Assembly (NCBI RefSeq): GCF_000012305.1 | Contig: NC_007204.1 | Coordinates: 1,116,001 to 1,180,000 of the forward strand | Direction: 5' to 3' | Source: Psychrobacter arcticus 273-4 | GTDB lineage: Bacteria > Pseudomonadota > Gammaproteobacteria > Pseudomonadales > Moraxellaceae | DNA length: 64,000 nucleotides | Part shown: positions 25,090 to 57,890 of the stretch, piece by piece | Layout of the letters: each line of letters begins with the position of its first letter | How positions within the stretch are numbered: the first letter of the stretch is position 1 | Notes under the pieces: model-generated | The model's input: only the letters and a program-made list of their open reading frames with translations | Database searches by the model: none | What the model was told of the DNA's origin: nothing | Program-made: the position numbers and the translations under genes

Positions 25090-25235
25090 TAAAGAGTGAT
25101 TCACGCATATTTATTTTATTTTTTATTGACTCTATCTTCTGCTTAAAATGAGCATTACGCTAACATCCATGAAAGTCATCGGTTATAATAGGCAGCTGTT
25201 TTATAATGACACGTTTATTTTGCCAAGGACTTATG

Positions 25236-25895
25236 ATGAGTGATCAGCAAGCACAAAAGCAAGCCGCAGCCAAAGCCGCTCTACGCTATATTGAAGATGA
25301 TATGATACTTGGCGTGGGGACGGGCAGTACGGTGAACTGTCTGATTGAGTTATTACCGACATTAAAGCTTGCTGGCGCGGTTGCAAGCTCGCAGGTGACA
25401 GAAGATAGATTGCGTGCACTTGGTATCGAGATTGTTGATTTAAACTTTGCAGGTCAGCTTGATGTGTATATTGATGGTGCTGACGAAGTAAACGCGCATT
25501 TGCAACTGATTAAAGGTGGCGGCGGTGCGCTGACACGCGAAAAAATCGTCGCCGCAGCTTCCAATAAGTTTGTCTGCATGGTCGATGAGAGTAAAAGTGT
25601 TGAGATACTGGGGCGCGCTTTCCCAGTACCAATAGAGGTATTGCCCCAAGCACGTTCTTATGTGGCGCGGCAATTAGCCCGTATGGGCGGCGAGCCGGTT
25701 TATCGTGAAGATTTTGTCACGGATTATGGCAATGTGATTTTGGATACTTACGATTTGGATGTCAGTAATCCACTAGCACTTGAACAGCAGTTAAACAATA
25801 TCGTCGGTGTGGTTTGTAATGGTATCTTTGCTGCCAATCAAGCAGACGTTTTGCTCAAAGCAAGCAGTAACGGGGTTGAAATACTTAACCGTTAA
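25236..25895 (+). CDS. rpiA: Ribose-5-phosphate isomerase A
   Basis: RpiA interconverts ribose 5-phosphate and ribulose 5-phosphate in the pentose phosphate pathway. Signature motifs are [13 protein letters not shown] (phosphate loop), YIDGADEVN (catalytic Asp) and [15 protein letters not shown] (catalytic Glu/Lys). The start at 25236 is favoured because AAGGA lies six bases upstream; ATG 25233 and the longer frame from 25206 have poorer spacing. It gives 219 aa, as in E. coli. A strong bidirectional terminator follows. Confidence 0.95.
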
Positions 25896-25913
25896 TTTTT
25901 CGTTGATTAAACA

Positions 25914-25954
25914 TTAAAAAGGCAAAGCACTATCAAGGTGCTCTGCCTTTTTTA
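25914..25954. terminator. Bidirectional terminator rpiA / argF
   Basis: The long stem AAAAAGGCA..AGCAC/GTGCT..TGCCTTTTT has A- and T-runs on both sides and lies between the convergent rpiA and argF genes. Confidence 0.85.
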
Positions 25955-25969
25955 GTAATGTTATTGCTA

Positions 25970-26107
25970 TATAGTTGAAATGCTTTACGGTCGCTACAGT
26001 ATTGCTGGTGTAAATTTTTTGCAGCCTCTGTCTGCGTAGGCACAGCAAGCAAGAAAAATTTGCACCAGTAGTACCTGTTGTATCGATATTACTTTTCACC
26101 GACTATA
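25970..26107 (+). repeat. 138-bp family hairpin repeat, copy 4 (form A)
   Basis: A full 138-bp copy lying between the rpiA terminator and the argF stop. On this strand the 22-nt arms around the core can pair completely when three G.U pairs are allowed. Confidence 0.92.
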
Positions 26108-26153
26108 ACTGCTATTTAATCCGCTTTTTGAGAGCCGTACCTGATGCAGATAT

Positions 26154-27077
26154 TTATGCAGGCAATTTGATCTTATCTTTTAATAAAAACTCCATTAAAG
26201 CTTTTTGGGCATGTAAACGGTTTTCAGCCTCATCCCATACCACAGAGCGTGGATCATCTAGCATATCATGAGAGATTTCTTCACCGCGATGCGCTGGCAA
26301 GCAGTGCATAAACACCACTTCAGGATCAGCTTTATCAAGCAGTGATGGCGTCACTTGATAAGGAGCAAATCGACGTGCGCGAGTATTTTGTTCAGACTCT
26401 TGACCCATACTTGCCCATACATCAGTAACAATCAAGTTGGAGTCTTTTGCCGCATCTTGTACATTTTCGACAAGGCTGACGCAATGCGAGAAGCGTTCCA
26501 TAAGTGCTGAGTCAGGCTCAAAGCCATAAGGCGCGGCGACACGCAGCTCAAAACCAAACTGATGAGCAGCTTGCATAAATGAGGCGCACATATTATTGCC
26601 ATCACCGACCCAAGTGACGATTTTGTTTTCGATACTGCCGCGATGCTCATAATAAGTTTGCATGTCAGCCAGTAGCTGGCAGGGATGAAATTCGTCGGTC
26701 AGGGCATTGATGATAGGGACACTTGAGTACTTTGCAAAAGTCTCGACTTTTTCGTGACCAAAGGTGCGAATCATAATGATATCGACCATACTAGAGATGA
26801 CGCGAGCAGAATCTTCTAAAGGCTCACCGCGTCCAAGTTGGGTATCATTTGGCGATAAGAAGATGGCATTGCCACCGAATTGCCCCATACCTGTCTCAAA
26901 TGAGATACGCGTACGGGTTGATGACTTCTCAAATATCATGCCGAGCGTCCGACCAACAAAGGGCTGATATATCTCGCCTGCATGTTGCATCTTGCGCAAT
27001 TCGCTGGCGCGTTTGATGAGGTTTTCTAGTTCTTGTTTGGTGAAATCAGATAAGGTCAAAAAATGGCGCAAACTCAT
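26154..27077 (-). CDS. argF: Ornithine carbamoyltransferase
   Basis: ArgF condenses ornithine and carbamoyl phosphate to citrulline in arginine synthesis. The carbamoyl-phosphate loop is [12 protein letters not shown], the [11 protein letters not shown] segment follows, and the ornithine-binding [12 protein letters not shown] motif is near the C-terminus. At 307 aa it has standard length. No ARG-box operator could be assigned with confidence in the 210-bp upstream spacer. Confidence 0.96.
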
Positions 27078-38164: not shown

Positions 38165-38339
38165 AAACATTCCTTTGGTTTAAATAAATAAAAGTGAGTT
38201 GGACAAATTTACAAGAGATCTTTTGAGTTGGGCTTAAGTATTTATTATTAAAGTCTAGCAAATTAGTGTGTGAACAGGTGTATTTGTTCGTGAATTATGC
38301 GTACACCAAAAGTATTTATTATTTTATTTAAAAAATGGC

Positions 38340-38477
38340 TATAGTCGGTGAAAAGTAATATCGATACAACACGTACTACTGGTGCAAATTTTTCTTGCTT
38401 GCTGTGCCTACGCAGACAGAGGCTGCAAAAAATTTACACCAGCAATACGGTAGCGACTTTAAAGTATTTCAACTATA
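38340..38477 (-). repeat. 138-bp family hairpin repeat, copy 6 (form B on +)
   Basis: A full 138-bp copy between the two acyl-CoA dehydrogenase genes, oriented so that transcripts from the minus-strand genes would contain form A. Confidence 0.92.
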
Positions 38478-38488
38478 TATCAGCTTCT

Positions 38489-47156: not shown

Positions 47157-49109
47157 ATGAGGTTTGTTTTGTTTATTAAGCGTCGTCTGAGTACTACTGC
47201 CGTGCCATCTTTATCGATGTCATTGATGAAATTACCATTAATCGTGATGACTCTACTTGTCGCTATGGCACTCAGTGTCATCTCGCAGCCTAGTGCGTTG
47301 GCAGCTGAGGCGAGCATACTGGGTGTGGGTGGTACTAAAACTGAGGAAGGGGATGGCACATCGATACCTGATTCATTCGGACGCGATACGCCTCGACATA
47401 CCGTTCAAGGATTTATTGCAGCATTGGGTGAAAATGATTATCTGCTCGCCAGTAACTATCTCAATCTATCTAAAGCTGATAATCCAACCACTGTCGTCCG
47501 TCAGTTTAAGCAAGCACTCGATGCAGGTGGTCGTTTTCAGGCTGATTTGCAGATTAATAACACGCCTGAAGGCAATTTAACCGATCAACTACCGCCAAGC
47601 CAAGAAAATGTCGGTGTCATCAAAGTCAGTGATACAAGCATTCCTTTGCTACTTGAAAGAGTGGTGTCGCAAGAAGGCGAGCAATACTGGCAGTTTTCTA
47701 CTGATACGCTCAGCTCAATACCAGAGGCAATAGAGAACTATAAGCCGACTTTGGTTTCTCGTTATACCATTGATTCACTAGAAGGTAAAAAGCTCTTTGG
47801 TTATCAGTTGGCTGATTTGGTTGCAGCTTTGGCGATAACTGTCAGTAGTTTTTTATTCACCTACATCGTCGTATGGCTACTGTATCATTTATTGGAAATC
47901 ACTTACCCTCGTGTCCGTGATGTGCCGCTGCCATTGCCAGATAAAGTTATATTGCCGCTAGCGGTGGTGATTATGGCGCTGATTTTGTCTGAGGTGATGG
48001 TTTATGCTGGGGTGTCAGTGACCCTGCGCGAGCCGGTCAACCGCTTCGCTGAGATTGCTTCGTGGGTGGCAATAACGTGGTTGTTATTACGCATTATCGA
48101 TGCCTTATTTACCCGTGCAGTGAATTTAAGCTATAAGAAAAACTATACTGAACGGGTCTCGATTTTGGGACTATTACGCAAAGTCGTCAAAGCGCTATTA
48201 TTGATATTTGCAGTCATCGTCACTTTCGGTAACTTGGGCTTTGACTTAACGACTGGTATTGCTGCATTAGGGGTAGGGGGTTTAGCCTTAGCATTAGGTG
48301 CGCAAAAGACCATCGAAAACTTAGTCGGCAGTGTGGTAGTGGTGGCAGATTCGCCTGTGCGTATCGGTGACTATTGTAAATTTGGTACGTATGAGGGCAC
48401 CGTCATCGATATTGGTATTCGCTCATCGCGCGTGCGTACCTTGACCCGTACTATCGTCACGGTACCTAACGGTGATTTTTCATCAATGCAAATTGAAAAC
48501 TTTACCTCACGTGACATGTTTCGCTTTTTACATCAACTATATATCAAGCGTACCGCTGATATTAATGTTGTGTTTAAGATGGTAAAACACTTGGATGAGT
48601 TTTTGGATAAGCATGAATTGACCAATCAAGAATGGAATCAAGTCAATATCTTAGAGTTGCGTCAAGATAGTTATATTATTCAGCTACAAGCCTATATCAA
48701 TGCCACTGGTATCATCGAATTCTATGAAAAACAAGACCGGTTATTCGTTGATTTGTTAATGCAAGTTAGGCAATATGATGTAGAGCATGCTTTGCCAACA
48801 CAGCAGCTGATTGTCAAGCAACCAGAGCTTCAGGCTCAATTAGAAAATGAAAATGAAGAAGGCGAGACCGTTGATCATAAAGATGACAAAAAAATTGCTA
48901 CTGATAACAAGTCAAAAGTCGTTCATTTAAACAAAGATAGTGATGCTGTTGATACGGAAAATGAAAATAAGCAGCCAGAGCCTGAACCAAAAAGGGATTT
49001 GTTAGACAGTAGATATAAAGCTATTCATAAAAGCAGCGGTCATACGTTAGCTCGATTAAAATTCAAACAGGTAAAAAATAGCTTTAGATTCCCAAGAGCA
49101 AAAAAGTAA
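47157..49109 (+). CDS. MscS-type mechanosensitive channel
   Basis: This large MscS homologue (650 aa from ATG 47157; the frame is open back to a GTG at 47082) has a signal-like N-terminal segment ending near ALA and a periplasmic region. Several membrane helices follow, then the pore-lining helix GVGGLALALGAQKTIENLVG and the beta domain VRIGDYCKFGTYEGTVIDIG. A cytoplasmic domain precedes a long acidic Glu/Asp/Lys-rich tail. Such channels release solutes on osmotic downshift. The stop codon TAA lies inside the adjoining hairpin repeat, so the C-terminal end was probably remodelled by its insertion. Confidence 0.92.
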   Translation: MRFVLFIKRRLSTTAVPSLSMSLMKLPLIVMTLLVAMALSVISQPSALAAEASILGVGGTKTEEGDGTSIPDSFGRDTPRHTVQGFIAALGENDYLLASNYLNLSKADNPTTVVRQFKQALDAGGRFQADLQINNTPEGNLTDQLPPSQENVGVIKVSDTSIPLLLERVVSQEGEQYWQFSTDTLSSIPEAIENYKPTLVSRYTIDSLEGKKLFGYQLADLVAALAITVSSFLFTYIVVWLLYHLLEITYPRVRDVPLPLPDKVILPLAVVIMALILSEVMVYAGVSVTLREPVNRFAEIASWVAITWLLLRIIDALFTRAVNLSYKKNYTERVSILGLLRKVVKALLLIFAVIVTFGNLGFDLTTGIAALGVGGLALALGAQKTIENLVGSVVVVADSPVRIGDYCKFGTYEGTVIDIGIRSSRVRTLTRTIVTVPNGDFSSMQIENFTSRDMFRFLHQLYIKRTADINVVFKMVKHLDEFLDKHELTNQEWNQVNILELRQDSYIIQLQAYINATGIIEFYEKQDRLFVDLLMQVRQYDVEHALPTQQLIVKQPELQAQLENENEEGETVDHKDDKKIATDNKSKVVHLNKDSDAVDTENENKQPEPEPKRDLLDSRYKAIHKSSGHTLARLKFKQVKNSFRFPRAKK

Positions 49110-49228
49110 TATCGATACAACACGTACTACTGGTGCAAATTTTTCTTGCTTGCTGTGCCTACGCAGACAGAGGCTGCAAAAAATTTACACCAGCAATACG
49201 GTAGCGACTTTAAAGTATTTCAACGATA
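49100..49228 (-). repeat. 138-bp family hairpin repeat, copy 8 (left end eroded)
   Basis: The copy begins at AAAAGTAATATCGATAC; the terminal TATAGTCGGTG is missing or mutated beyond recognition where it meets the mscS coding end. Core and right side (to CAACGATA) are canonical. Confidence 0.9.
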
Positions 49229-49258
49229 GTTATTAAACACATTGACGATTTTTTGACA

Positions 49259-49288
49259 TAAAAAAGGACTGCTTATTGGCAGTCCTCT
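49259..49288 (-). terminator. Terminator after the Smr-domain gene
   Basis: The stem AGGACTGC/GCAGTCCT has a 6-nt loop and a minus-strand T-run (TTTTTTATG), about 20 bp past the gene's stop at 49307. Confidence 0.85.
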
Positions 49289-55448: not shown

Positions 55449-55587
55449 TATAGTTGAAATACTTTAAAGTCGCTACAGTACTACTGGTGTAAATTTTTTG
55501 CAGCCTCTGTCTGCATAGGCACAGCAATCAAGAAAAATTTGCACCAGTAGTACGTGTTGTATCAATATTACTTTTCACCGACTATAT
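55449..55587 (+). repeat. 138-bp family hairpin repeat, copy 10 (form A)
   Basis: A 139-bp copy with three or four substitutions (TCTGCATAGG in the core, CAGTACTACTGG on the left arm). It lies between the glnA terminator and the DUF4124 gene. Confidence 0.9.
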
Positions 55588-57555: not shown

Positions 57556-57693
57556 TATAGTTGAAATACTTTAAAGTCGCTACCGTATTGCTGGTGTAAA
57601 GTTTTTGCAGCCTCTGTCTGCGTAGGCACAGCAAGCAAGAAAAATTTGCACCAGTAGTACGTGTTGTATCGATATTACTTTTCACCGACTATA
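57556..57693 (+). repeat. 138-bp family hairpin repeat, copy 11 (form A)
   Basis: A full 138-bp copy with one arm change (AAAGTTTTTGC for AAATTTTTTGC), in the spacer between the SIMPL gene and the ffs promoter. Confidence 0.92.
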
Positions 57694-57781: not shown

Positions 57782-57890
57782 GGTGGCTCCATTGGTAGCC
57801 TCGCAACATTGTTCTATGAATCCCGCCAGGACCGGAAGGTAGCAACGGTAATAGTTATAATGTGTGCCGAGGATGTGCTGATGGAGTCGC
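57782..57890 (+). ncRNA. ffs: 4.5S / SRP small RNA
   Basis: This is the bacterial small SRP RNA, about 109 nt. The apical Ffh-binding region CCAGGACCGGAAGGTAGCAACGG contains the GGAA tetraloop and the symmetric AGCA/AC loop. The closing helix is GGTGGCTCCAT paired with ATGGAGTCGC, followed by eight T residues as terminator. It works with Ffh and with FtsY, which is encoded at 4.4 kb in this window. Confidence 0.93.

Follow-up and report, generated by a model that had tools for sequence, protein, structure and literature searches.

The window (the whole stretch of 64,000 nucleotides of Psychrobacter arcticus 273-4 analysed here) carries at 25970-26107 an inverted repeat with 22-nt arms, which raises the question as to the molecule and the strand in which this hairpin is maintained. 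MITE hairpins may owe their maintenance to selection on RNA or on DNA, or may arise as mere inverted-repeat by-products; these cases are hard to separate, and for bacterial MITEs the difficulty stems from the fact that covariation alone can also arise on DNA. The direction of wobble changes (G.U kept, A.C avoided on one strand) tells the two strands apart, and hundreds of copies from many subfamilies provide this test with statistical power. In the following, form A denotes the orientation read from the + strand of the copy at 25970-26107, form B its complement.

The repeat copy between rpiA and an argF-like gene

Features of the locus are as follows (window coordinates, strand, description):
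25206..25895, + strand, rpiA, neighbouring gene; read-through would give form A
25916..25952, no strand assigned, terminator-like hairpin outside the element, downstream of rpiA
25970..26107, + strand (form A on +), whole MITE copy, 138 bp including both TA, delimited by alignment of 204 copies
25972-26105, element proper without the flanking TA
25970..25971, no strand assigned, left copy of the probable TA target duplication, judged from empty sites at other copies
25970..25998, + strand, left terminal repeat, like Psychrobacter IS630 ends (family consensus nt 9-29 against shuffles, p 0.002)
25998..26019, + strand, left arm of the hairpin, 22 nt, from covariation; outermost base unpaired on form A here
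26020..26053, + strand, apical region, 34 nt, with inner helix CTGT/ACAG; strongly conserved across the genus
26054..26075, + strand, right arm of the hairpin, 22 nt, from covariation
26079..26107, - strand, right terminal repeat, like Psychrobacter IS630 ends (family consensus nt 9-29 against shuffles, p 0.0004)
26106..26107, no strand assigned, right copy of the probable TA target duplication, judged from empty sites at other copies
26154..27077, - strand, ornithine carbamoyltransferase gene (argF-like), convergent neighbour; would read form B

The copy starts with TATAGTTG, finishes with CGACTATA and lies between the convergent rpiA and argF-like genes, past the terminator-like hairpin at 25916-25952. 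Because this hairpin stands between rpiA and the element, form A of this particular copy may be poorly transcribed; by eye, a similar hairpin is present in many relatives devoid of the MITE copy. A scan of 25850-26200 flagged only 25916-25952 and found no intrinsic terminator (GC-containing stem plus T run) in the MITE copy, ruling out this identity. Likewise, a sigma-70 promoter was rejected, as no promoter-like site was detected within or next to 25970-26107, and membership in a known RNA family was dismissed for lack of an Rfam match at cut-off (sub-threshold matches only at E<=5).

The rpiA and argF-like genes occur in one locus in 22 relatives, 21 of which gave no BLAST match to the element, the remaining one (L307) containing a diverged copy; at the rpiA/argF-like locus L324 an element remnant was recognised by eye. 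None of the loci of the 22 relatives provided an exact empty site for 25970-26107, their flanks being too diverged at the junction. Elsewhere in the window, a gene for the small bacterial SRP RNA (Rfam RF00169) is located at 57790-57886, about 100 bp past the MITE copy at 57557.

An IS630-type MITE family of Psychrobacter

The repeat at 25970-26107 is firmly identified as one copy of an IS630-type MITE. A 25-mer from the left half of the MITE matches 312 places in the genome with at most three mismatches (2,650,701 bases searched), evenly distributed between the strands (157 vs 155), and its reversed control matches none in the whole genome. The 22-mer CGTATTGC..., which the earlier note had quoted for the arm, is absent from 25998-26019, where the arm starts with A (one mismatch); with its initial C it occurs six times free of mismatches elsewhere in the window. 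With up to three mismatches, 17 matches are present in the window vs 0 expected, a number beyond chance. A profile search yielded 11 MITE copies in the window, two of which (at about 40847 and about 51080) are diverged and had escaped the 22-mer search.

From 120 genome stretches plus the window, 204 MITE copies were extracted, 185 of them full length. Coding capacity is absent from the 138-bp element, 201 of the 204 copies lacking an overlap of more than 70 nt with an ORF of at least 100 aa, and insertions are mostly intergenic. Within the genus, matches were obtained in 79 of 100 genomes and no match in the other 21. Among 149 genomes of the family, 39 were matched by an RNA model built from 37 representatives and the window copy; they belong to 2 of 16 genera, the second genus contributing a single genome with two matches. 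In an apex-motif scan, all 80 loci among the matches listed (of at least 120) belong to Psychrobacter.

Copy 38338-38481 found no match in plasmid and phage collections, in which records near the P. arcticus genome may be absent, and an origin from either was rejected on this ground; a REP/RAYT-type palindrome was set aside on reasoning alone. Among the papers listed in literature searches, none was recognised as an account of this repeat; the P. arcticus genome paper may contain a description. The accessible part of PMC12306157 gives palindrome counts for P. arcticus in general, that of PMC2267715 leaves Psychrobacter unnamed, and PMC3733652 names neither Psychrobacter nor Moraxella nor Acinetobacter.

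Assignment to the IS630 type rests on the ends and on the insertion sites. Of 60 Psychrobacter genomes, 48 contain the IS630-type transposase domain PF13358, and in 11 of 20 IS630 loci examined both ends were readable and resemble both MITE ends. The ends of these loci start with TATAGT; in most of them TAAA and (C)GATACA-like blocks follow, spaced as in the MITE. TATAGT, TAAA and CG.TAC-like blocks are common to the terminal 28-29 bp of MITE and IS630 elements. Scored past their first 8 bases against a profile of 18 IS630 end sequences, the MITE ends reached 9.7 and 15.0 (shuffle p 0.002 and 0.0004), both lower than the IS630 ends on their own profile (17.6-26.9). Outside the ends, BLAST (E<=0.01) of the MITE core and of a whole copy against 23 IS630 loci returned no match.

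Joined-flank searches with 357 insertions gave 49 junction-spanning matches. At least nine of these represent gap-free empty sites that carry one TA, as opposed to the two TA bordering the element in the occupied site, namely the pairs L199/L334, L177/L349, L205/L352 and L241/L049 as well as the sites for the copies of this genome at 400773, 936433, 1550594, 1556192 and 1621596. The remaining matches include some with CA or GA at the place of the TA, few-base gaps or alignment to other repeats. Among the 204 copies, no repeat of flanking bases outside the TATA ends was clearly beyond shuffles, and a symmetric base preference exists around the TA at insertion sites. Together, IS630-like ends and single-TA empty sites define a TA-inserting IS630-type MITE. 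The element is non-autonomous and would be moved in trans by IS630 transposases of relatives: only three DDE_3 fragments were found in this genome, so that the driving transposase would have to be sought in relatives or in the past. Four genomes of the genus (G022, G028, G056, G059) each contain 18-35 matches to IS630-type transposase domains and are possible sources of MITE drivers.

Individual copies deviate from the common layout. In window 55477-55554 the version typical of the right arm occupies the left arm, and in 1143-1220 the left-arm version is found on the right arm, followed by a short duplication; the corresponding left-arm site is T in 159 and C in 38 of 203 genome copies. The right end of the copy at 49063-49260 leaves the consensus, by eye, about 11 bp short of the terminus.

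Stem pairing, covariation and apex conservation

According to the earlier note, the two 22-nt arms pair at every position on form A, with three G.U wobbles, and are mismatched at the same sites on the other strand. The three wobbles were confirmed, but 21 rather than 22 pairs form (18 Watson-Crick and 3 G.U), the A at the start of arm 25998-26019 facing the C at 26075 in an outermost A.C. Similarly, the three wobble sites (T.G, G.T and T.G on form A) do turn into C.A or A.C on form B, whereas the outermost pair is a wobble there, so that form B contains three mismatches and one wobble. The further proposal, that form A RNA is the functional molecule, was derived from three sites in one copy, which is a weak argument: three transition differences share one strand with a chance of 1 in 4, and in most copies the three sites represent one inherited event. 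Its direction nevertheless survives in the genus-wide comparison described below.

For covariation analysis, representatives differing at 8 or more positions were selected (51 of 145 copies kept), 44 of which were aligned with the window copy (7 left out) to give 45 diverse copies; a further 7 were left out for the RNA model. Considering the 22-pair stem plus four inner pairs, the share of standard pairs is 89.4% for form A and 84.8% for form B. In the form A main stem, 17 of 22 pairs vary on both sides and 116 double-change cells were counted, compared to a shuffled mean of 38.0 (0 of 500 shuffles as high) and to only 10-28 cells when the partners were slid by 1-3 columns. This shows that the hairpin is kept across the genus. 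Form B yielded nearly the same result (18 pairs varying on both sides, 112 cells vs 41.3 shuffled), and since double changes are alike on both strands, covariation itself names no strand.

The 34-nt apex remains nearly unchanged across the genus while the sequence of the stem drifts. By eye, its innermost segment, located between CTGT and ACAG, is reverse-complemented in some diverged copies (L175:2470-2615, L177:3563-3710 and L307), as though turned round inside the inner helix. An almost invariant apex on a drifting stem would suit a trans-acting small RNA, i.e., a dispersed multicopy regulator with the apex as pairing or protein-binding part. Such a role is very improbable, given that neither a promoter-like site in or around the copy at 25970-26107 nor an Rfam family at cut-off was found, and that the distribution, from 0 matches in 21 of 100 genomes of the genus to 312 places in the present one, argues against an essential function in trans.

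Direction of wobble changes in the stem

In this genome, 188 of 199 copies with complete stem (5 of the 204 left out as incomplete) have more wobbles on form A than on form B, 9 have equal numbers and 2 fewer; this excess is mostly due to shared descent of the three sites. Diverse copies are more informative: across the 21 inner pairs of the 45 copies, 79 wobble cells were counted for form A and 21 for form B, with 19 columns leaning to form A, none to form B and two ties. In 210 copies of other genomes (38 of 248 without complete stem left out), form A is favoured by 17 columns and form B by 2, with 2 ties (p 0.0007). Private stem mutations, i.e., those at which all near neighbours agree, amount to 35 for form A vs 13 for form B (p 0.002), as compared to 56 vs 78 in the unpaired control (p 0.07); this genome alone contributes 5 vs 2. 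From the 213 matches underlying this set, 44 below 60 bits and then 24 of the remaining 169 with incomplete stem were dropped.

Changes were also placed on FastTree trees by Fitch parsimony (means of 10 reconstructions, outermost stem pair excluded), same-genome copies from two sources being treated as one only when they agreed completely in the element and in 10 flanking bases. On a tree of 362 unique copies, changes from Watson-Crick to wobble number 180 for form A vs 71 for form B (columns 19:0), with 402 vs 379 in the unpaired control. The larger tree of 417 distinct copies (56 matches below 45 bits and 34 of 514 gapped rows dropped) gave about 196 changes to G.U on form A vs about 83 on form B; of the 21 stem columns, 18 favour form A and 3 form B, and the unpaired parts display no skew (468 vs 456). 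These counts assume the absence of recombination between copies, while the arm-swap copies suggest that it occurs. Equal retention of pairing by form B across the genome, which would speak against the earlier note, was thus not observed, the changes (about 196 vs 83) favouring form A. Overall, the wobble skew supports single strands of form A as the constrained molecule.

The skew is carried for the most part by A-U pairs (121 form A vs 28 form B changes). For G-C pairs combined it is not significant (75 vs 55, p 0.10), and by orientation the G-C class (62:36) leans to form A and the C-G class (13:19) to form B. Return to Watson-Crick per 1000 branches is 34 for T.G vs 113 for C.A, with no difference between G.T (101) and A.C (99). 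Since a change from A-U to G.U is cheap for an RNA helix, A.C breaks it and changes of G-C are costly, this pattern would fit selection for stability; it would also fit a mutational bias from A to G that is restricted to the stem. In the tree test, moreover, controls with slid partners are skewed as well (58-90 vs 20-51, five of six slides significantly); they re-use the same stem mutations and are therefore not clean, so that the skew has to be ascribed to the stem sites as such, and the slid controls give no proof that the pairing partner matters.

These observations bear on an explanation without any RNA selection, in which template switching or recombination between copies keeps the two arms alike and the skew reflects inherited masters combined with a stem-specific mutational bias, chiefly A to G. 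The arm-swap copies at window 55477 and 1143, the excess of A-to-G changes relative to T-to-C changes implied by the A-U pairs, the skewed slid controls and the equal double-change covariation of both strands all agree with this explanation. Homogenisation is strand-symmetric, however, and the elements are balanced on the genome strands (157 vs 155); furthermore, the same elements show no skew in their unpaired control (468 vs 456), and the direction is common to 18 of 21 columns. An origin of the skew without RNA selection is considered rather doubtful.

Genomic context and orientation

In tandem gaps, 144 of 514 copies have form A as sense and 106 form B (p 0.019, uncorrected), the corresponding numbers for this genome alone being 59 and 42 (p 0.11). 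The other copies are located in convergent (148) or divergent gaps (75) or inside ORFs (9), or have no neighbour gene within the stretch (32). Compared to gaps of 20-600 bases devoid of the element in the same stretches of this genome (tandem/convergent/divergent 87/12/9), gaps bearing it include a higher proportion of convergent and divergent cases (101/55/39; p 5e-6).

A smaller set had pointed to an influence of gene orientation on the strand skew (form A as sense, 34:10.5; form B as sense, 18:17), but this influence faded with more copies (34:13 vs 23:16, p 0.25) and was dropped. In this larger set, tip events were taken from sequences found only once; across four contexts the skew does not differ significantly (p 0.62), divergent gaps being skewed as well (23.5:11).

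RNA or single-stranded DNA

As RNA, a 158-nt segment folds with -49.4 kcal/mol on form A (z -4.4) and -35.2 kcal/mol on form B (z -1.3), and the consensus fold is likewise more stable on form A (-27.3 vs -13.4 kcal/mol). For the 90-nt core the energies are -37.7 and -26.0 kcal/mol, i.e., a gap of 11.7 kcal/mol. DNA parameters also favour form A, with -18.0 vs -14.8 kcal/mol and a gap of 3.2 kcal/mol.

The form A strand could accordingly be constrained as a single-stranded DNA hairpin formed during replication or transposition, with a protein recognising the asymmetric apex. The strand test is blind to the difference between RNA and single-stranded DNA, in which G.T is also better tolerated than A.C; the high conservation of the apex and a skew without clear tie to gene orientation would suit a DNA hairpin, too. 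IS630-like ends and TA duplication point instead to double-stranded cut-and-paste, which in the Tc1/mariner type needs no internal hairpin, and the energetic preference for form A is larger for RNA (11.7 kcal/mol) than for DNA (3.2 kcal/mol). Taken together, a DNA hairpin is regarded as quite unlikely, and the constrained form A molecule is likely to be RNA, as judged from sequence comparison.

Proposed function

The favoured and probable reading is that of an IS630-type MITE whose form A transcript contains a hairpin kept by RNA-level selection and most likely acting in cis on its own message. Copies would be read through into neighbouring transcripts, form A of these transcripts would fold into the hairpin, and selection at the RNA level would maintain the fold. 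The folded RNA may then serve its carrier message as a processing or stabilising hairpin, comparable to the involvement of RNase III in case of Correia/NEMIS, which could render the insertions tolerable. Least certain is this last role as processing or stability element, which is suggested by analogy to Correia/NEMIS and bcr repeats. One may speculate, tentatively, that the IS630 MITE, a selfish element, now carries an RNA hairpin with nearly invariant apex, selected on form A in hundreds of dispersed copies and acting as a genus-wide post-transcriptional module (processing or stability) which every insertion supplies to the neighbouring message; if true, a transposon scatters one RNA module through a genus, where it would be open to study in a laboratory Psychrobacter.

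Comparison with known systems

With respect to its ends, the MITE resembles the IS630/Tc1-mariner insertion sequences of Psychrobacter, which have end blocks and TA duplication in common with it. The MITE differs from them by its 138 bp without transposase gene and by an interior unmatched in the 23 IS630 loci. Within the same bacterial family, MITEAba12 is described in the accessible part of PMC6382973 (0 occurrences of Psychrobacter therein) as an element of 111-114 bp with ends common to ISAba12 and 9-bp duplications, thus differing in size, ends and duplication length.

The closest known kinds of element are the Correia/NEMIS repeats of Neisseria and the bcr elements of Bacillus. Like those of the MITE, Correia ends start with TATAG and are located at TA. 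For the bcr elements, the accessible part of PMC3446304 reports bcr1-bcr18 as intergenic repeats of the Bacillus cereus group, several of them MITE-like, with about half of the copies transcribed, in UTRs or operons, and with conserved RNA structures in bcr10 and bcr18. They belong to a different phylum, IS630 ends are not mentioned for them in that part, and the likeness to the Psychrobacter MITE is one of description.

Correia/NEMIS elements, as far as covered by the accessible part of PMC2649163, are genus-restricted and MITE-like, mostly 104-108 or 153-157 bp long and present in about 120-250 copies, with inverted-repeat ends, target duplication and a transcribed hairpin bound by RNase III. 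They differ from the Psychrobacter MITE by an outward promoter, which was not found at copy 25970-26107, and, compared by description, by a hairpin made of the terminal repeats, the stem of the Psychrobacter MITE being internal and capped by a separate conserved apex. To the extent of the same source, both share the character of a genus-restricted MITE-like repeat with inverted-repeat ends and target duplication.
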